DNA from: Candidatus Mcinerneyibacteriota bacterium
Lineage (GTDB): Bacteria; Macinerneyibacteriota; Macinerneyibacteria; Macinerneyibacteriales; DSCS01
Direction: 5' to 3'
DNA length: 22,147 nt
NCBI GenBank assembly: GCA_016937175.1
Contig: JAFGWL010000032.1
Coordinates: 1-22,147 of the forward strand
Numbering within the stretch: position 1 is the first letter of the stretch; each line of letters starts with the position of its first letter. This document shows positions 6,901 to 16,637 of this stretch, piece after piece. The translations under genes and the position numbers were made by a program. The notes below the pieces were generated by a model, which made no database searches, was not told the origin of the DNA, and saw only the letters and a program-made list of their open reading frames with translations.

Positions 6901-7980
6901 ATGAAAAGGCTGACAGGATCACTCCTCCTTCTCCTTTTTATAACTTCTCTCTGTCTCTCCAGCCCTGAAGTCACAGTCTCCTTTAAAAAGAACTATACAT
7001 CTCTTGATTTTACCGGAATCAAAATCAGTGAAATCGTGCCATACCCGGGAGAGGATAAACTGGTCCTTAAGGTCACGTCTCCTCTTCGCCCGAGCCACAC
7101 TGTGGTCGATTACCGGGCTGTCAAGACGATCTCTTTTTATCAAGACCGGATCGAAGTCCTTCTCGCCTACAGCCGCAATTACTCCTTTTCGGGATCGATT
7201 CTCATTATCGTAGATTCTTTCCCCCAGACGGCCTTTGCCCGTTCACAAGTGACTCAGGTCCGGAGCCGGCCTCAGCATGATGCCCCGCTGGAATCAGAAC
7301 TTATCCGAGGTTCCCTCTGCCGGATCGTAAAAAACAAGAAAAGCTGGCTCTATGTGAAAATTCCTGATCAGAAGGGTCATGCTGGCTGGGTCCGGGAAGA
7401 TGATCTGGATCTTCTGATCGCCCACGGCCTCTCTCTCGATCAGGTCGTCTCAGAAAAAAGGATCATCATGACAACCCCGGATGGCGGCCAACATCCCCTC
7501 CAGGGAGGGACTCCCTACCGTATCTTAAGTCGGGATGAAGAGCAGTTATATATCGTCCTGGCTGACGGAACGAAAGGGACCATCCCTACCCCTTCTCCGG
7601 CCGATTCCTCCTCTCTCAGAGACAGGATCATCAGGACAGCCCGGGATTTTATCGGAGTCCCTTACGTCTGGGGAGGAACCAGCAGCCACGGGCTTGACTG
7701 TTCAGGCCTCACCTGGCTTGTCTACCGCATGAACAATATCACCATTCCGCGGGACGGGACTCCCCAATACAAGTATGGGAAAAAAATAACCAAAAGCAGC
7801 CTTCAGCCCGGCGACCTTGTCTTCTTTTCCACATTCAAACCGGGGCCTTCTCATGTGGGGATCTATATGGGGGATTCCCGTTTCATCCACGCCGCCACTG
7901 AAGGAGTGCGTATCTCCTCCCTCGATGAGCCCTACTACGCTCAAAGGTTTTACGGAGGTGTTACCCTCCTAAAGCCTTGA
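6901..7980 (+). CDS. SH3-domain NlpC/P60 peptidoglycan endopeptidase
   Basis: Predicted periplasmic D,L-endopeptidase that cuts peptidoglycan stem peptides. The 359-residue protein has a signal peptide (1 to about 20), a beta-rich AMIN-like region (about 23-107), SH3-like repeats (about 117-170 with HAGWVREDDL, and about 178-228), and a full NlpC/P60 domain (240-359). Catalytic residues are in place: Cys267 in LDCSG, His318 in SHVGIY and His330 in FIHAA; YVWGG (255-259) and LQPGDLVFF are also family marks. The Cys before the cleavage region has Leu, not Ala/Gly/Ser, in front, so a lipoprotein signal is unlikely. Translation starts three bases after the AMIN gene. Its stop is six bases from the stop of the convergent ABC gene. 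Confidence 0.93.
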   Translation: MKRLTGSLLLLLFITSLCLSSPEVTVSFKKNYTSLDFTGIKISEIVPYPGEDKLVLKVTSPLRPSHTVVDYRAVKTISFYQDRIEVLLAYSRNYSFSGSILIIVDSFPQTAFARSQVTQVRSRPQHDAPLESELIRGSLCRIVKNKKSWLYVKIPDQKGHAGWVREDDLDLLIAHGLSLDQVVSEKRIIMTTPDGGQHPLQGGTPYRILSRDEEQLYIVLADGTKGTIPTPSPADSSSLRDRIIRTARDFIGVPYVWGGTSSHGLDCSGLTWLVYRMNNITIPRDGTPQYKYGKKITKSSLQPGDLVFFSTFKPGPSHVGIYMGDSRFIHAATEGVRISSLDEPYYAQRFYGGVTLLKP

Positions 7981-7986
7981 CAGGAG

Positions 7987-8718
7987 TCAGTATTTCAAAA
8001 CTTTGGCAAGAAACAGCCTCAGGCGCTCCTCAGCGGGATAGTCAAAGATCTCTTCCGGAGTCCCTGCTGCAGCTACGGTTCCCTCATCAAGAAAAAGGGC
8101 ATAGTCGGAAACGATTCTGGCAAATCCCATTTCGTGAGTCACCAGAATAAGGTCTTTCCCTTCTTCCCGCAGCTCCTCGATGACATCCAGGACTTCTGAG
8201 GTAAATTCGGGGTCAAGAGCTGATGTAGGTTCATCGAAAAGCAGAAAAGAGGGACTGACTGCCACGGCACGGGCAATAGCCACACGCTGTTTCTGGCCAC
8301 CTGAAAGGAGAGCCGGTTTTTTTTCAGCGTGCAGAGAGAGCTGAAACCTCGCTAGAAGCCCCATGGCATGTTCCCGGGCTTCTTCCTGCCCGTATCCGTG
8401 GACATGGACAAGGGGAAGCATAATATTCTCCACAGCGGTCATATGAGGGAAAAGGTTGTAGGATTGAAAGACCATCCCCATGGTCTTCCGATATTCTCTT
8501 AAGGAGCTTTCTTCCGTGGGGATAGGCTTTCCGTTGATGATGACCTCCCCTGCTTCCGGGACAAGAAGCCCTGCAAGGATCCTGAGGAAAGTGGACTTGC
8601 CTCCTCCGGAAGGCCCTATGATGACCAGAGAGCGGATCCCGTCGAGGTGAAGAGAGATGTCGGACAGGACTTTTTTTTCGTCAAAGGCCTTAGACAGCCC
8701 CCTTATATCAAGTTTCAT
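7987..8718 (-). CDS. Polar amino-acid ABC transporter, ATP-binding protein
   Basis: Cytoplasmic ATPase that powers the importer encoded with the next two upstream genes. The start chosen is the ATG at 8718 (243 residues); the frame stays open to 8844 but that is permease shadow. Walker A is GPSGGGKST (35-43), Q-loop Q85, signature LSGGQ (138-142), Walker B LLFDEP (159-164), D-loop SALD and switch His195 (THEMGFA). This matches the GlnQ/HisP/ArtP class. The gene overlaps the permease by 11 bases. It ends convergent with nlpC. The amino acid transported cannot be read from the ATPase. Confidence 0.95.
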   Translation of the reverse strand: MKLDIRGLSKAFDEKKVLSDISLHLDGIRSLVIIGPSGGGKSTFLRILAGLLVPEAGEVIINGKPIPTEESSLREYRKTMGMVFQSYNLFPHMTAVENIMLPLVHVHGYGQEEAREHAMGLLARFQLSLHAEKKPALLSGGQKQRVAIARAVAVSPSFLLFDEPTSALDPEFTSEVLDVIEELREEGKDLILVTHEMGFARIVSDYALFLDEGTVAAAGTPEEIFDYPAEERLRLFLAKVLKY

Positions 8719-9505
8719 AGGAAAAAGCCCTTTCCAGTCGTTTAGAAAGATTCGAAATAGGATATGTGATAAGAAGATAGCCCAAAGCCAAAGGGAGGTA
8801 GCTTTCCAGCGTAGAGTAGGTGTAGGCGTTGACTTCCTGGGCATTGAGAGTAAATTCGCTTACCGAGATAATGGAGAGCAGGGAAGAGTCTTTGATAAGA
8901 GAGACCAGCTGGCCTGCCAGAGGAGGAAGGATACGTTTGAAGACCTGGGGAAAGATGATAAACCGGTACTGTTGAAAACGAGTCAACCCCAGAGAACGTG
9001 CTGTTTCAAGCTGTGTCTCACCGATGCTGTCGATACCAGCCCTGATGATCTCAGATATATAAGCTCCGGCAAAAAGCGAGAGGATCATGACTCCGGTCAC
9101 ATAACGGTTCTGGACACGGAAAGCATCTGCAATAACATAAAAAAAGACCAGGATCTGGACAAGAAGCGGCGTCCCCCGGATGATCTCCACATAAAAACGG
9201 CTGAAAAAGTAGAAGGGAAGAAACCTTGATTTCTGGCCCAGGGCGAAAAGCGACCTCAACAGGAAGCTGACAATAAGGGAGAAAAAGGAGAGGACCAGCG
9301 TCATCCCCAGGCCCCGGATGAATTTGGCCCGGTAGGCCCAGACTCCGGCCCAGTGAAAATCATACTCCAACCGAGAAAAGGAGAAGATGAAGATCAGAAG
9401 GATAAAGAGGGCGACCAGGAAGGCATTCAGCAGAGTCGACGGGCAGGGAGACGGAGCTTCCCGGTCAGATTCCCTTAAAAAACAGTTGAACCATTTTTTC
9501 GTCAT
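8708..9505 (-). CDS. Polar amino-acid ABC transporter, permease (HisM/GlnP family)
   Basis: Integral membrane subunit of the importer, 265 residues. An extra N-terminal helix (about 25-45) precedes the canonical permease core starting with FIRGLGMTLVLS (62-73). The conserved EIIRGTPLLVQI (107-118) follows, then the EAA loop GETQLETARSLGLTRFQQY (162-180), which docks on the ATPase, and LPPLAGQLVSLIKDSSL, all standard for the HisM/GlnP/ArtQ family. A single permease gene implies a homodimer. It starts 12 bases after the receptor gene and overlaps the ATPase gene by 11 bases. Confidence 0.93.
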   Translation of the reverse strand: MTKKWFNCFLRESDREAPSPCPSTLLNAFLVALFILLIFIFSFSRLEYDFHWAGVWAYRAKFIRGLGMTLVLSFFSLIVSFLLRSLFALGQKSRFLPFYFFSRFYVEIIRGTPLLVQILVFFYVIADAFRVQNRYVTGVMILSLFAGAYISEIIRAGIDSIGETQLETARSLGLTRFQQYRFIIFPQVFKRILPPLAGQLVSLIKDSSLLSIISVSEFTLNAQEVNAYTYSTLESYLPLALGYLLITYPISNLSKRLERAFSYET

Positions 9506-9517
9506 CGTTTTTAATTC

Positions 9518-10315
9518 TCAGGGAGAAAAGAAGAACGGGATCCCCAGTTCCTCAAAGGTCTTCTTTTCCTCTTTGAGATACTTGTCAGCCAGCCTTTCAA
9601 ATCCGCCGCTTTCTTTGAATGATCCCAGAAATTCGTTCACTTTCCGGTGGAGCTCAACATCATCTTTACGCATGGCCATTCCCCAATATTCGAAATCCTT
9701 CTGAAAAGGTTTCAAGATCGCCCGGGTCGTGTCACGGTTCTTCTGCCAGTTCGTCAAAATCGTCATCTGGTCATAGATAAAACAATCAGCTTTTTTCTGA
9801 ACCACTTCAAGAACACAAGCGCTCTCTTTATCAAAGACATTGATCCTGGCCAGGGGAAAATGCTCCCGGGCGTAGAGATGGCCTGTAGTCCCTTTTTTAA
9901 CAGCGATGATACGCCCTTTCCGATTCAGGTCTTCGACCTTCTCCACGGGGGAATCCTGAGAAACGAGAAGAGCCAGATAAGCTTTGGAGTAGGGTTTTGA
10001 GAAGGTGACCGACTGGCTCCGCTCTTCGGTGATAGTCATAGACGAGATGACAATATCGATCTTCCCAGTCTTCAACGAGGGGATCAGCCCGTCAAAGCTG
10101 ATATTCCATATCTTCACGGGGCGTCCCAAGAATTTTCCCAGTTCATGAGCCATGTCCACACTTATACCTGTAGGGTTTCCTTCTGTATCTGTCATCTCAA
10201 AAGGCGGATAGGCCAGTTCCATCCCTACATTCAGGATATTTTCTTCGCGAGGTCCGCAACCCCCAAAAAGCAACAGGCTCACAAAGAGTATGATACCGGT
10301 GACCTTCCCTTTCAT
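9518..10315 (-). CDS. Amino-acid-binding lipoprotein of the ABC importer
   Basis: Solute receptor of SBP family 3, 265 residues. The signal ends in lipobox LLFGGC, so Cys20 should be lipidated and anchor the receptor to a membrane facing the periplasm. Family signatures are NVGMELAYPPFEMTD (29-43), SVDMAHELGK, FDGLIPSLKTGKIDIVISSMT and TEERSQSVTFSKPY (97-110). The Arg in that last motif usually pairs with the ligand carboxylate. The ligand (Gln, Arg, His, Cys and others are possible) cannot be fixed. A strong ribosome site (AAGGAGGG) precedes the ATG, nine bases after the DUF4197 gene. Confidence 0.94.
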   Translation of the reverse strand: MKGKVTGIILFVSLLLFGGCGPREENILNVGMELAYPPFEMTDTEGNPTGISVDMAHELGKFLGRPVKIWNISFDGLIPSLKTGKIDIVISSMTITEERSQSVTFSKPYSKAYLALLVSQDSPVEKVEDLNRKGRIIAVKKGTTGHLYAREHFPLARINVFDKESACVLEVVQKKADCFIYDQMTILTNWQKNRDTTRAILKPFQKDFEYWGMAMRKDDVELHRKVNEFLGSFKESGGFERLADKYLKEEKKTFEELGIPFFFSP

Positions 10316-10324
10316 ATTCCCTCC

Positions 10325-11047
10325 TTAAAGGTTTCCAAACACCCGTCTCAGGATATCTGAAGTCCTGGCGGCGGGGTCTTTCCTGATCTTCTCCTCTTCA
10401 CGGGCCAGCAGCAGAAAGAGTCCATCCAGGGCTCTCCCTGTCACGTAGGAGTCCAGGTCTTCATCCAGGATCTGGACAGGCAGAGTTCTGATCTTTGTTT
10501 CGATATCCTGATAATAGGCGGTGACTCCCACTTCACTCATGGCCTTTCGGACAAGAGGTTTGAGCAGAGAAGAGAGACGGTCATAGGATTTCGATTTAAA
10601 ATAGTCGGTGGCAGCCCTGTCCCCCCCGTTCAGGATCCCCCAGGCGTCTGAAAAGGTCATCCCTCTGATGACATCCCAGAAGACATCCAGAGCCAGAGGC
10701 GCCGCTTTCTCGGCAGCTCTGTTCATGCTACGGTGAAACTCCTCGACACGGCTGCCGAAACCAGCCATCTTCAAAAGATTTTCCGCTTTTCGGATCATGG
10801 GAGGCAGAGGGATCCTGATAGCTCCGTCAGCCCAATATCCGTTTTCTTCACCGGCTTTCTTAACTGCCCTCTCGGCTCCTGTCCTCAGAGCCTCTGTCAA
10901 TCCCATGATGACTTCCTCCTCTGTCAGTGAGCCTGAAGCACCCCCTGTCAGAAGATTTCCCATTCGTTCCATATCTCCTACGGTACAACTATAGAGCAAC
11001 GTTCCCAGACACAATAACAGAGCCAGGCCCTTTAACCGTTTTTTCAT
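10325..11047 (-). CDS. DUF4197-family lipoprotein
   Basis: A 240-residue protein of the DUF4197 family, function unknown. The N-terminus is a lipoprotein signal ending LLYSC (Cys21). The mature part shows family-like stretches: [18 protein letters not shown], the [17 protein letters not shown] stretch, and a C-terminal [20 protein letters not shown] with [11 protein letters not shown], a typical DUF4197 ending. AAAGGAGG four bases before the ATG is strong. It lies 51 bases after the giant kinase/GGDEF gene. A TTGAGA-like -35 box is visible in the gap, but the -10 (TAAAGA) is poor, so a separate promoter is uncertain and read-through is possible. It precedes the ABC importer by nine bases, so it is probably in the same transcript. 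Confidence 0.88.
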
Positions 11048-11098
11048 ACGGCCTCCTTTTTTATCTTTACTTTGACAATAATCCCTTTCTCAAGATCC

Positions 11099-14000
11099 TC
11101 ATGCCTGTTTCCGGGGCCGTGACAGGCTGACTTTCTCATAAATGATCTGCCCCACTAAAGAAGCAAAACTCTTTTCCAGATGAATATTGAGCGAAGAGTC
11201 CTGGTTGTCATAGTAGACCGTGCCTCTTCTGGATCCCCGCGCTGACTCGTAGATAGATACATGGGTATCGGTCAGGTACGATGATGTCTCGTTACTTTTC
11301 AGGGCCCCTTCAGGAAGCGGATAGACAGCCCATCCCTTTTCATCTCCGATTTTGACGACAACAGTCCCGTTGAAAAGTTCGGTCAGGACAGCATTAGCCC
11401 GATCGACAACAGTTTCAAGGGACTCTGAATCGGCCCTGATCTGGTTCAACCGTACAAGGCAATCGATCTTCTCTTTTTCTCTCGCCGGGTTAGTGATAAC
11501 AGCCTGTCTCTCCCGCTTCTTCATCTCATCGTGACGGACGTCCGCCCATGAAGTCACACGGTTCCGTCCGGCCTCTTTGGATTCAAAAAGGGCATGATCA
11601 GCCTTCTCTATGAGTTCATCCAGGATCTCTCCGTCGTCGGGATAGAGAGCGACACCAAGGCTGACGGTGACTTTCTGTTTTTCCGCAAGATTCTCCTTTT
11701 CACAAGCCCGGCAGATGCGCTCTGCGATCATCAAGGCCTCGCTCCTTTTCTTCACCATGAGCGCAAAAATAAACTCTTCCCCCCCGTAACGCCCGATGAT
11801 GTCGATATGACGCGTGGATTGTGTGAAAACCCGTGCGATCCCTCTTAAGACCTCATCCCCCTTTTTATGGCCGTATTCGTCGTTGATGCTTTTGAAAAAA
11901 TCGATATCTCCCATGATCACAGCCATCTTTCCTCCGCTTTTCCGCTGCCGTGCCAGGAGGTCTTTAGACAGAGAAACCCAGCTGTCACGTTTATAGAGTC
12001 TTGTCAGGGGATCGATAAGAGCTGTCTCTTTCAGTAGGTTATAATAGAGAGTCGCGTTGGCATACTCCCTCATATAATAGAGAGGTTTCAGATCCTTCTC
12101 TTTTGGCCTGGTTACCCCTTTTTTGGTATCAAAATAGAAACAGCCGCTCATGGAAAGCATAGTGCTGAAGGAAGAACTCTTCTGTCCTTCAGCAGAACGG
12201 GCCACAGCGATATCGATAATGGGAAAGGCAAAAGCTTCAAATATTCCCCGGTCTTTCATAGGGTCGGGACTTTCCCAGAAATGTATGATATCCTCTTCAA
12301 CAAAAAGCTGCTTGTTTAGAAGTGTCTCGATGACAGGCTCTTCTTCATAATGATACATGGGATCATAGAACTCTTTCCTTTTGATCCACTTCTTGACGGG
12401 GTCGAACTCAAAGTAGATGCCCCGGGTCACATCGTATATATCCATGACGTTTTTAATACAGACTTCTGCCAGCTGTTCCACTGTCAGCATATTCTGATAA
12501 TGGGCTCTTTGATAAAAGGAGCTCTCATTTTTCTTTCGATAGGCCCGGGCTTTGGAAGACAGAGATTTGATATACTCTTCCCCCGTGGTCTCCAGAGGAC
12601 GGATCCCTTTTTCTGTCAGAGTCATTTCATGCATCTGCCAGAAAGGAGTCCTCCTGACCAGGGCAAACTCCCCTTTTCCCAATCCTCTGCGGGCCTGTTC
12701 CATCATCATAAGATAAAATGCAGCCAGATTCGCCTCTTCTACAGAAAATTCTTCAAGTCCGGAAAGCGCCACATGCAGAAAAAGCATCTTGACGGTAAAA
12801 AAGTGAGCATCCCCCATGACCACAAGTTCAGGATGGGGATGAAGTCCCGCTTTCAGAAGAAAGAGCTCCACAGCATATTGATACTGAGGTTCTGTTTTAT
12901 TACTGTATTCTGTTAATTCCTTATCAAGTAGCGTCACGATCCTTTTAAGTGTTGGGTGAAGTGCTTCAATGGGAAAGAGATAATAAGTCAGAGCTGCATA
13001 GAGATTGTAGAGTTTGGCGGGATTATCAATAAAATAGGAATCCCGGGATACAGACTCTGCAAGCTGAGCGGCCGGATCGGCCCCCTGGCGGTAAAAGAGC
13101 GTCAGGACTTTGAGGATAAAGTATTGGAAATATTGCCTTGTCTCCTTCTTCTTTTCATAAAAAGGCTCGACTTTGTGAAAATACTCTTCCATCTTATCCA
13201 TGCGTCCCAGATGATACCAGGCTCTGGCATAAATGGTATAAAAGGAGTGGACGGATTCGACACTGTCCAATTTATCTACGAGGGGCTCGAACTTTTTGGC
13301 GATCTCCAGCAGCTCTCCATATTTAAAATCGAGGATATAGTTTTCCATAAGATTATTGACGGCGGTAAAAAGAACCGGATAAGCCTCTCCCCTCTCCCCG
13401 CATTCGATGGCCTTCATGAGGAATTCCGCATGTTTTTCGGGCCTGTTCATCTCATAATAGACCACCGCTGTATTATTGTAGACAATGGCCTGAAGCATAT
13501 CATTATGCATTTCACGGGCGATACGGCCCGTGGTCTGGTAATATTCCAGCGCTTTTTCCGGGTTTCCCCTGTTGGCGATCCCTGAGACGTTATAAGCGGA
13601 AAAGACCATATCCCGGGGCAGCTCCTCTTCATGGCTTTGGGCAATTTCCAGCATTTTCGCACCCAGTTCCGAAAGCATGGTAAAATCATTCATTCGCAGA
13701 TAGGTCGATGTAATCGCAGAAAAGAGAGCAAACCGTGTCTCAAAATGAAGCTCGTCCAGGAGCGGCTTTATCCGCTTTTCAAACAGTTGGATCGCTTCCT
13801 CTGAGAGGGCATGGTTGGAGAGATACTCCAGAAGAGAGGCTGATACTTTCAGCCAGAGCTTTTCAGGGAGCAGGTCCTTTTCATCGAAGATGGCAGCGGC
13901 CTCCCTGGCCCTTGAAAGGCCGGCTACATCAGTCCTGAGAGCCACAGAGAGGGCCTTGTATTTCTCTTCCCGGGTACGGGCCAGCGCATCCATTTCATTG

Positions 14001-15928
14001 CAGATCCCGTTATAATCGAATTCCTTTTTCTCATCCTCTCCCGACAAAGCATAGAGGATGGCAAAATGCTTATCCTTGGGGATTTCCGGAAAATGAGCAT
14101 ACAGGTGTTTTAAAGCATGATAAAAACCCCTGTGAAGGGGAGATTTCTGATTCTCCTTTAAAGACTCGTAGAGTTCCAGAAAAGTGTCCAGTTCTTTCCC
14201 GTACATCTTCTGAACTACAGCCAGCCGGATAAAGGGAAAAACCAGAGAATGGTCTTCCTCAAGATACCCGGCAAGGGCAGAGACAAGGCGAGTATAGAGT
14301 TCATTGGGGCCCGGCAGTGCGATATTCTTTTTCAGAATATCATATTTCAAAACGATCCCCTCGCGTGGGAGAAGGATGTTTTTTTCTGCCAGGGCCTTGA
14401 CCGCATCGTCGTATGCAGACGGAAGGAGCTTGCAGACAGCCGGAGGAAGATACCCGTTAAAGTGATAGAGCACTCCCAGGATCTCTTTTTCTTCTCCGGT
14501 ACATTGTGAAAAGAGAGTCTTGTACTGTCTGTTAAAGTCAAAATACTCTTTGATCGGATGGTTTGTCTCATATCTCTCTTCAAAGACCCTGATCCCCTTC
14601 TGTCGGGCCATATTCTGAAGGCCGGCTTCGATCAAAACAGGCTCTCCTGCTGTCTCTTCCCAGATGTCATCGATCCATTTCTGCGGAAGTTCAAACAGGT
14701 GGAAATAGAAGGAAAGAATACGTTGGATCTCTTCTTTTGTCAATCTCTCGACATTGACCTGATCCTCATCCTGAACAAGATCTGTCCCGGAAGCATGAAG
14801 GATGATGAGCCTTTCCGGGGAAAGCTGATTTCTTATGCTACGGAGAACATCGAGGCTGAACGGGTCAAGCCGTGAAGTATCCTCAAGGATGATAGCAAGA
14901 GGGTGGATTGCGGTAAGCTCTTTGATAAGCTGGATGCTGATCTCTGTCAGTTTCGTTTTTTCAGCCTTCTCATTCCGCAAGGGGCGGGCCGGCGAGAACT
15001 CGGGGAGAGGAGCGATCTTACAATACTCTTCTCCATGGCGTCCGATGATCTTCTTTCCGTAATCAAAACGGTCAAAGTAGAGAAGAAGATACCGGATGAG
15101 CCCCAGGAATTCATCCTCTTCTGTATTTGCGACCCAGAGCGTCTTATAATCCTCTGTTTCCAGAAACGGGATCAGGCCTTTGGCAAAGAGACGGCTGTTT
15201 GCTTTATCCCCGTTGTAGCGGAGAGCAGCTTCGGTTTTCCCGCGAATCAGCTCCTGCCCCTTTTTCAGGTCCAGGGCCCAGTAGGCAGAAGGGAAAGAAG
15301 TCTCCTCAAGATGCCTGTAAAGGAGTTTCTCCTGAAGATCGGGGTCAAAAAGAGGATGGCCCAGATAATCCCTGACAGTCTCCCTCTTCTTAGGTATCAT
15401 GATATTCATTCTTTTAAAGATCTCGGTTATCTTCTTCATGTCATAGGAACGTCCTTCGGGTACATCAAGAAAAGGACTCAGGTCAAAGAAGAAGATCCCT
15501 TCTCCATCATAGAGGAAATTATTGATCCGGATATCGCCATGAAAGTAACCGGCCCGATGTATGAACGAGAGTCCGCACATGGCCTGGTTAAAAAAGAGTT
15601 TCTTATCCACTGAAGAAGTTTCCCGGAGGACATCAGGCAACTGGATGGCTGTATAAAAGTAGTCCCCGTCACTCATCACAGTGCCGTCAATGGAGTATAT
15701 CTTGTAAAACCTCTCCACTTTCCGGACAAGAGGGTGCTCCAGAAGTGAAGCCGCCCGGTATTCAATCTTGAAGTATTCGGCCGGAAACCTTTTTTTCACG
15801 TTGCGGTTGAGTATTTTAACGATGATCCCATCTCGCTTTTCGATCAGGTCACAGGCGCTGAAGACTAAACTGTTCAGAGTTTCCGCATACTTTTCTTTGA
15901 TTTGGTATCGTCCGTTTAAAACCTTCAT
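11099..15928 (-). CDS. Giant signalling protein: Ser/Thr kinase-like, degenerate ATPase, TPR, GAF-like and GGDEF domains
   Basis: A 1609-residue cytoplasmic protein with no signal peptide or transmembrane helix seen. Residues 1 to about 215 are a protein-kinase-like domain with Lys38, Glu56, catalytic-loop HGD (130-132) with Asn137, and DLS (149-151) in place of DFG. About 245-450 resembles an AAA/STAND ATPase: Walker-B-like LAIILEDTS (344-352) is present, but no Walker A loop. About 570-1040 is helical with TPR-like repeats (for example NPEKALEYYQTTGRIARE). About 1140-1300 is GAF-like. Residues 1300-1460 form a GGDEF diguanylate cyclase with DPLTRLYKRD, GDIDFFKSINDEYG, intact GGEEF (1382-1386) and RHID inhibitory site (1373-1376). 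About 1487-1602 looks like a second GAF. The output should be cyclic di-GMP; the input is unknown. It has its own promoter. Confidence 0.9.
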   Translation of the reverse strand: MKVLNGRYQIKEKYAETLNSLVFSACDLIEKRDGIIVKILNRNVKKRFPAEYFKIEYRAASLLEHPLVRKVERFYKIYSIDGTVMSDGDYFYTAIQLPDVLRETSSVDKKLFFNQAMCGLSFIHRAGYFHGDIRINNFLYDGEGIFFFDLSPFLDVPEGRSYDMKKITEIFKRMNIMIPKKRETVRDYLGHPLFDPDLQEKLLYRHLEETSFPSAYWALDLKKGQELIRGKTEAALRYNGDKANSRLFAKGLIPFLETEDYKTLWVANTEEDEFLGLIRYLLLYFDRFDYGKKIIGRHGEEYCKIAPLPEFSPARPLRNEKAEKTKLTEISIQLIKELTAIHPLAIILEDTSRLDPFSLDVLRSIRNQLSPERLIILHASGTDLVQDEDQVNVERLTKEEIQRILSFYFHLFELPQKWIDDIWEETAGEPVLIEAGLQNMARQKGIRVFEERYETNHPIKEYFDFNRQYKTLFSQCTGEEKEILGVLYHFNGYLPPAVCKLLPSAYDDAVKALAEKNILLPREGIVLKYDILKKNIALPGPNELYTRLVSALAGYLEEDHSLVFPFIRLAVVQKMYGKELDTFLELYESLKENQKSPLHRGFYHALKHLYAHFPEIPKDKHFAILYALSGEDEKKEFDYNGICNEMDALARTREEKYKALSVALRTDVAGLSRAREAAAIFDEKDLLPEKLWLKVSASLLEYLSNHALSEEAIQLFEKRIKPLLDELHFETRFALFSAITSTYLRMNDFTMLSELGAKMLEIAQSHEEELPRDMVFSAYNVSGIANRGNPEKALEYYQTTGRIAREMHNDMLQAIVYNNTAVVYYEMNRPEKHAEFLMKAIECGERGEAYPVLFTAVNNLMENYILDFKYGELLEIAKKFEPLVDKLDSVESVHSFYTIYARAWYHLGRMDKMEEYFHKVEPFYEKKKETRQYFQYFILKVLTLFYRQGADPAAQLAESVSRDSYFIDNPAKLYNLYAALTYYLFPIEALHPTLKRIVTLLDKELTEYSNKTEPQYQYAVELFLLKAGLHPHPELVVMGDAHFFTVKMLFLHVALSGLEEFSVEEANLAAFYLMMMEQARRGLGKGEFALVRRTPFWQMHEMTLTEKGIRPLETTGEEYIKSLSSKARAYRKKNESSFYQRAHYQNMLTVEQLAEVCIKNVMDIYDVTRGIYFEFDPVKKWIKRKEFYDPMYHYEEEPVIETLLNKQLFVEEDIIHFWESPDPMKDRGIFEAFAFPIIDIAVARSAEGQKSSSFSTMLSMSGCFYFDTKKGVTRPKEKDLKPLYYMREYANATLYYNLLKETALIDPLTRLYKRDSWVSLSKDLLARQRKSGGKMAVIMGDIDFFKSINDEYGHKKGDEVLRGIARVFTQSTRHIDIIGRYGGEEFIFALMVKKRSEALMIAERICRACEKENLAEKQKVTVSLGVALYPDDGEILDELIEKADHALFESKEAGRNRVTSWADVRHDEMKKRERQAVITNPAREKEKIDCLVRLNQIRADSESLETVVDRANAVLTELFNGTVVVKIGDEKGWAVYPLPEGALKSNETSSYLTDTHVSIYESARGSRRGTVYYDNQDSSLNIHLEKSFASLVGQIIYEKVSLSRPRKQA

Positions 15929-15989: not shown

Positions 15990-16637
15990 TTAAACCCCTA
16001 TTCTTCGGAGGATGTCACAGGGAGAGGAGATCCTGTAATCGGCCATATCCCACTCCTCTTCGGTCCCGTATCCATAAGTCGCAGCGCATGAAAAAACACC
16101 GGCCCTTTTAGCCCCGTTAAAGTCATGAAGACGGTCACCGACCATACACACAGCCTCATTTCTTGTAAAGGAAAGTCCATTCAGGACATCCCGGATAAGT
16201 TCTTCTTTGTCGGTCTTTCTCCCGTCGAAATGGCTTCCTGCAATGATCTGAAAATAGCGGGCCAATTGAAAATGTCCGAGTATCTTCTCAGCAAAGACAA
16301 GGGGTTTGGCCGTGGCTACAGCCAGAGTCACCTTTTTATCAGAAAGAGTGCGAAGCGTCTCAGTTACTCCCGGATAGAGATTATTTTCCCAGAGCCCTTT
16401 TCCCCGGTAATACTCCCGGAACAACTCTACAGCCCTGGAAGTGTCATCAGAATTGAGAGAAAACCTCTTCTGAAATGAATCGTGGAGGGGAGGCCCGATG
16501 AAACCCCGGGACTCCTCCGGCGTCAGGGGTGCAAGCCCCATTTTACCGACAGAATAGAATATGGCATTCATGATCCCCGGGGCAGAATCTGTGAGTGTCC
16601 CGTCCAGGTCCCAGATCAGGAGTTCAAATGGCTGCAT
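15990..16637 (-). CDS. HAD-superfamily phosphatase (phosphoglycolate-phosphatase-like)
   Basis: A 215-residue HAD hydrolase. Motif I is WDLDGTLTD (Asp10 nucleophile, Asp12 acid/base), motif II is Thr109 in VATAKP, motif III is Lys141 or Lys144 in GRKTDK, and motif IV is GDRLHD (Asp168, Asp172). A helical cap with GFIGPPL follows motif I, as in the Gph/PGP group, so phosphoglycolate or another small phosphoester is a plausible substrate, not proven. The ATG lies inside the end of nfo (14-base overlap), so it is the last gene of the purF operon. Pairing with a DNA-repair nuclease fits 2-phosphoglycolate removal after 3'-end cleaning of damaged DNA, which is an inference. Confidence 0.9.
   Translation of the reverse strand: MQPFELLIWDLDGTLTDSAPGIMNAIFYSVGKMGLAPLTPEESRGFIGPPLHDSFQKRFSLNSDDTSRAVELFREYYRGKGLWENNLYPGVTETLRTLSDKKVTLAVATAKPLVFAEKILGHFQLARYFQIIAGSHFDGRKTDKEELIRDVLNGLSFTRNEAVCMVGDRLHDFNGAKRAGVFSCAATYGYGTEEEWDMADYRISSPCDILRRIGV

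Follow-up and report, generated by a model that had tools for sequence, protein, structure and literature searches.

The window analysed (22,147 nucleotides, the whole of the stretch taken from contig JAFGWL010000032.1 of Candidatus Mcinerneyibacteriota bacterium, assembly GCA_016937175.1) carries a complete gene on the minus strand (11099..15928) that starts with ATG and encodes 1609 amino acids, an open reading frame far longer than expected by chance. The chain is made up of a kinase-like head, a STAND-like region lacking a P-loop, a TPR block, a probable GAF-like domain, an intact GGDEF domain and a C-terminal extension; the union of kinase-like, ATPase-like, TPR, GAF-like and GGDEF parts in one protein had been proposed in the original prediction. 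No hydrophobic stretch of transmembrane strength was found along the 1609 residues (maximum mean hydropathy 1.5 over 19 residues). On the same strand, an HAD-family phosphatase gene (15990..16637, Pfam) lies upstream, 61 bp before the start of the kinase-GGDEF gene, and a DUF4197 gene (10325..11047, Pfam) lies downstream, 51 bp after its stop.

The phylum was sampled with three genomes: the source genome (G000), a second of the same genus (G001), and G002. The G002 orthologue (L070) is whole and shares 25% identity over the chain; the G001 orthologue shares 49% identity over aligned columns and is present in two pieces (first L069, second L068), each of which stops at a contig end. In G001, genes of 281 and 223 aa precede the orthologue and a gene of 240 aa follows it (ORF on L068), and in G002 the orthologue is preceded by a gene of 216 aa. 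As a neighbour of similar size was found in both relatives (L069, L070), the HAD-family phosphatase gene is a probable operon partner of the kinase-GGDEF gene. A one-off gene fusion or an assembly chimera was ruled out, since the whole length is common to orthologues and paralogues.

GGDEF matched 14 times in the source genome, and six of these matches lie in open frames of 1472–1705 aa; the genome holds about six such kinase-headed GGDEF proteins, with several more in each relative. All three of its Pkinase matches sit in these proteins, and the paralogues C10 and C20 exceed the Pfam Pkinase cut-off. A tree of the family resolved five paralogue groups (A–E), four of which include all three genomes, and this places most duplications before the split of the two families. 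Group C has a canonical glycine loop (GEGSMGIVY), with DFG in two of three, and the loop is lost in groups A and B. Group D also takes in WOR-3-like sequences. A close pair on C6 belongs to group B, and two paralogues of this group are neighbours, spaced by about 1.9 kb and two ORFs, in both genomes (L025:1153-5928 and 7827-12566, minus strand; L063:4338-9095 and 10965-15563, plus strand). Members of group E (L028:4672-9714, minus strand; L067:2226-7283 and L074:125-5179, plus strand) have lost the kinase motifs, carry MGEEF or MGDEF in place of GGDEF, and are retained in all three genomes; the arginine of RxxD is also missing in two of the three. By sequence, they seem degenerate in both the kinase and the GGDEF part and nonetheless maintained.

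The kinase-like domain covers residues ~1–175 (15404..15928, minus strand) and was assigned by Pfam, a family profile, Foldseek and motifs. Pfam alone was marginal for the single sequence (Pkinase, E = 0.0015, residues 32–143; 18.4 bits, below the cut-off of 31.7), but a profile of 21 family heads matched StkP/Stk1 and other kinases in the PDB (5e-20, profile positions 2–169). Foldseek of the head model returned PknB as the top match (E = 1.7e-7, probability 1.00), and the elements of the model follow the kinase order of beta strands 1–3, C-helix, beta strands 4–5, long helix and catalytic loop. Two structure models were used, each for a part of the chain; their confidence was modest, with a mean pLDDT of 52 and 65. 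The Ser/Thr-kinase-like fold originally predicted at the N-terminus was confirmed by these sequence and model comparisons.

The head keeps the VAIK lysine (K38), the C-helix glutamate (E56), the catalytic aspartate (D132), the asparagine (N137) and the DFG aspartate (D149). K38, E56, H130 and D132 are invariant in all 18 members of groups A–D, and N137 and D149 are retained in 17 of the 18, with only 4% of columns 1–210 invariant across the same sequences. Because nucleotide-site and catalytic residues are kept amid so little invariance, ATP binding by the head is likely. Among the three orthologues of group A, 20% of columns are invariant, all five catalytic positions included (chance of this overlap ~0.0004 by simple sampling, which ignores the general conservation of functional columns). 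The glycine loop after strand 1 reads AETLNS, with no glycines, HRD is replaced by HGD (H130-G131-D132) and DFG by DLS. The kinase match ends near residue 150–170 of a domain of ~260 residues, which leaves a short C-lobe in which the activation segment and substrate-binding lobe appear reduced or missing. Given the glycine-free loop and the short C-lobe, phosphotransfer may be absent.

A region resembling STAND/AAA_16 domains follows (residues ~225–460; 14549..15256, minus strand; hhalign and TIGR03903). An AAA/STAND-like ATPase had been predicted here, and the claim stood for the half that holds Walker B and GxP (residues ~320–460) but failed for the P-loop. Pfam reported AAA_16 over the Walker-B part (E = 0.049, residues 313–376), and among the best 25 of 29 families listed AAA_16 was not found at E ≤ 0.01 for the 17 members. 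A profile of groups A and B was compared by hhalign with four P-loop-bearing proteins of other lineages (probability 95.4, E = 1.8e-8); the match spans residues ~312–464, starting at the Walker-B strand and taking in the GEP motif, and TAGEP of groups A and B aligned with TxGNP of the P-loop-bearing proteins. The NCBIfam family TIGR03903 matched locally at residues 321–437 (E = 4e-8). A motif search for GxxxxGK[ST] found no P-loop anywhere in the 1609-aa chain. In terms of sequence, the region is a STAND-type domain after loss of Walker A and, lacking a P-loop, is probably inactive as an NTPase. An active AAA/STAND ATPase was rejected, as no group has a P-loop at the expected place, and to speak of the region as an active AAA/STAND switch would for this reason be wrong.

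Two P-loop-like segments were seen in paralogues. In group E, a strand-turn-helix was aligned to the P-loop (GESGSLKET vs. GARGTGKTR, probability 39.7, E = 3e-4), which is suggestive of a decayed P-loop. In group D, GLHASGKT and GLNASGKT fit the P-loop pattern (C20 and its G001 orthologue; L027:4585-9000, plus strand, and L066:3383-7795, minus strand); the fit is probably accidental, because the segment is located just before the Walker-B-like strand.

The long helical-repeat block of the original prediction (residues ~500–1120; 12569..14431, minus strand) was confirmed as TPR by sequence comparison, with repeats at ~690–990. TPR_12 of Pfam matched residues 787–842, 14 of 17 family members also have TPR_12 matches, and a profile of the middle region matched many TPR structures in the PDB. 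A GAF domain is probable between this block and the GGDEF domain (residues ~1145–1276; 12101..12496, minus strand), on the basis of a model, a fold search and a weak profile match. The ~150 residues before GGDEF have a GAF-like order of predicted helices and strands (low-confidence model, pLDDT 35–73 by block), and a fold search of the C-terminal third, from the same kind of low-confidence model, gave Dcsbis as the best match together with a bacteriophytochrome cyclase. Dcsbis is a diguanylate cyclase of the GAF-GGDEF type. The profile match of the region to a known GAF was weak (E = 0.005), Pfam GAF was not found for the 1609-aa protein at E ≤ 1, and no GAF family was found for the 17 members among the matches listed. 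Several GAF-like domains had been proposed, of which one, before GGDEF, is plausible.

A connecting, putatively signalling helix leads into the GGDEF domain (residues 1277–1304; 12017..12100, minus strand; helix 153–180 of the model). The GGDEF domain itself (residues 1299–1459; 11552..12034, minus strand) was matched by Pfam (E = 2.2e-38, 132 bits vs. a curated cut-off of 23.8), TIGR00254 (6.9e-46) and PDB 3ign (2e-27). It has the signature GGEEF (residues 1382–1386; 11771..11785, minus strand), the metal-binding residues, and the RxxD product-inhibition (I-site) motif as RHID (residues 1373–1376; 11801..11812, minus strand), five residues before GGEEF. The prediction of an intact domain was confirmed at the level of sequence, and the domain is a predicted cyclase. 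The chain ends in an extension (residues ~1465–1609; 11102..11536, minus strand) delimited by alignments and a low-confidence model. This tail of 145 residues occurs in every group except D; a second GAF domain at this place (1465–1609) was rejected, with no support in profile comparison.

For the survey outside the phylum, the first profile covered the full chain, scored two candidates per genome and was dominated by GGDEF, and the search was repeated with GGDEF and kinase removed. With this middle profile, and two candidates scored per genome, full-length relatives were found in at least six of 386 genomes, three from genus g32 besides the three Mcinerneyibacteriota. Full-length relatives scored at least 820 bits, and the best match after them (77 bits) covered TPRs only. 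Beyond the phylum, at two candidates scored per genome, WOR-3-like MAGs were the only source of close full-length relatives. Two of them are named: L108, from a candidate division WOR-3 MAG, which the tree shows as identical to G179 of genus g32, and L106, from a MAG that carries the label Desulfuromonas sp. SDB; a single-sequence scan of the named genomes gave no relative, and an alignment scan found them. The architecture survey that had been proposed in related genomes shows an arrangement shared by both relatives and by WOR-3-like MAGs, not a lone oddity.

Several records met in the survey deserve mention. ‘Desulfuromonas sp. SDB’ (L106, LKUE01) groups with WOR-3 sequences in the family tree (support 80 only), and ‘Bacillota bacterium SpSt-1200’ (L105 and L107, DSCS01 records) shares its phylum with Mcinerneyibacterium; the titles of these three records look mislabelled. 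In another lineage (G052), L151:590-4606 (plus strand) encodes a GGDEF protein of 1338 aa in which GNQRIGKT at residue 249 resembles a P-loop and Pfam gave no domain besides GGDEF; to judge from its motifs it is possibly an NTPase-GGDEF fusion. L144:3960-7571 (plus strand) encodes 1203 aa with an N-terminal GGDEF followed by AAA_16 with an intact P-loop and TPRs, the reverse of the domain order in the 1609-aa protein.

The 1609-aa protein is probably a diguanylate cyclase of the cytosol, subject to product inhibition and gated by its kinase-like, ATP-binding head together with the TPR and GAF-like modules. The head would bind ATP, possibly along with a substrate or partner, and its role would be mainly regulatory; the STAND remnant would be a structural adaptor, and the TPR block would bind partner proteins or peptides. 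The state of head, STAND remnant and TPRs would be passed to the GAF-like domain and through the connecting helix to the geometry of the GGDEF dimer, where two GTP would be converted to c-di-GMP and synthesis would be feedback-limited at the RxxD site. A histidine-aspartate relay would not be needed inside the chain. The original prediction of output without a phosphorelay stood to this extent, as Pfam and NCBIfam gave neither a histidine-kinase nor a receiver domain in the chain. Two-component signalling is present elsewhere in the source genome, which gave 23 HATPase_c matches. The source genome also gave several HD_5 (HD-GYP-type) matches, and no EAL or PilZ; HD-GYP proteins would remove the c-di-GMP.

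Alternatively, the head may be a genuine Ser/Thr kinase whose target is the TPR, GAF or GGDEF part of its own chain, or a partner, with phosphorylation turning the cyclase on or off. Such activity would agree with the lysine, glutamate, catalytic aspartate, asparagine and metal-binding aspartate kept by group A in three species, and with the canonical group C paralogues; the lost glycine loop of groups A and B, HGD for HRD, DLS for DFG and the curtailed substrate-binding lobe all speak against it, and we consider it unlikely for the 1609-aa protein. Still less probable is a pure pseudoenzyme scaffold, in which neither the kinase-like nor the STAND-like part binds nucleotide and both serve only to hold the TPRs and the GAF-GGDEF unit together. 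The missing P-loop, the eroded glycine loop and the persistence of group E without kinase motifs would suit a scaffold, but the nucleotide-site residues of groups A–D are far more conserved than their surroundings, which would be unexpected if nothing were bound. That the GGDEF domain of the 1609-aa paralogue is a GTP or c-di-GMP sensor, with the kinase head as output, is suggested by the degenerate MGEEF and MGDEF of group E in the same family and is very improbable, as in the 1609-aa copy GGEEF, the metal-binding residues and RxxD are all complete, with no reason to assume inactivity.

With the ATP-gated cyclase as the preferred reading, a broader and decidedly tentative proposal is that Mcinerneyibacteriota have co-opted the Ser/Thr-kinase fold as a head that reads ATP and regulates c-di-GMP synthesis, next to a STAND adaptor devoid of a P-loop. 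Every Pkinase domain detected in the source genome is on a diguanylate cyclase, and under this proposal group E might tune the active paralogues by hetero-association. One small genome holds heads that are canonical (group C), eroded (groups A and B) or dead and paired with a degenerate GGDEF (group E), which makes the family well suited to the question of whether heads of this kind work as kinases or as ATP-gated cyclase switches.

The system had been put forward as unusual, and this was weakened by an in silico report of 2005, by the paralogues, the WOR-3 relatives and L142, and by the missing P-loop. In that report, a protein of Clostridium thermocellum (gi|23020879, 1826 aa) is given as ‘Kinase + 6 TPR repeats + GGDEF’, and Ser/Thr kinases are proposed to share c-di-GMP output with histidine kinases (PMC1262709). 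Like the 1609-aa protein, it is described with an N-terminal Ser/Thr kinase, TPRs and a C-terminal GGDEF in one large chain; the two were compared by description only, and the entry as given there mentions neither a STAND remnant nor GAF (PMC1262709). Little beyond PMC1262709 was found on the exact architecture, and the literature searched gave no bench work on kinase-TPR-GGDEF proteins.

L142 (1540 aa, G119), from a different lineage, has the same kinase-TPR-GAF-GGDEF order and output, with 36% identity to the 1609-aa protein at the GAF end and GGDEF and no convincing similarity beyond these. It differs in a full canonical kinase (HRDLKPGN, E = 3.6e-42) and a clear Pfam GAF, and by sequence is an independent chain of this order. 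Given the C. thermocellum protein (PMC1262709) and L142, the architecture class is already described in silico. Kinase-AAA_16-TPR-GAF-histidine kinase hybrids (L145, and cyanobacterial dual kinases such as HstK, cited in PMC1262709) share the module order before the output domain, but their output is a histidine kinase, and in L145 the P-loop is intact (GARGTGKT) and the kinase domain full-length. The TOMM system kinase/cyclase fusion (TIGR03903) is likewise described in NCBIfam as a kinase/cyclase fusion and is locally similar, but belongs to another system by its family description; membership was ruled out by score (31.5 vs. a cut-off of 705.75). Dcsbis and other sensor-GGDEF cyclases resemble the C-terminal third in having a sensor domain, a helix and GGDEF, and differ in having no kinase-like head, STAND remnant or TPRs. 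Against these systems, the present analysis adds a family of paralogues from a poorly known phylum, the loss of the P-loop, the pattern of kept and lost kinase motifs, and the placement of all detectable kinase domains of the source genome on GGDEF proteins.
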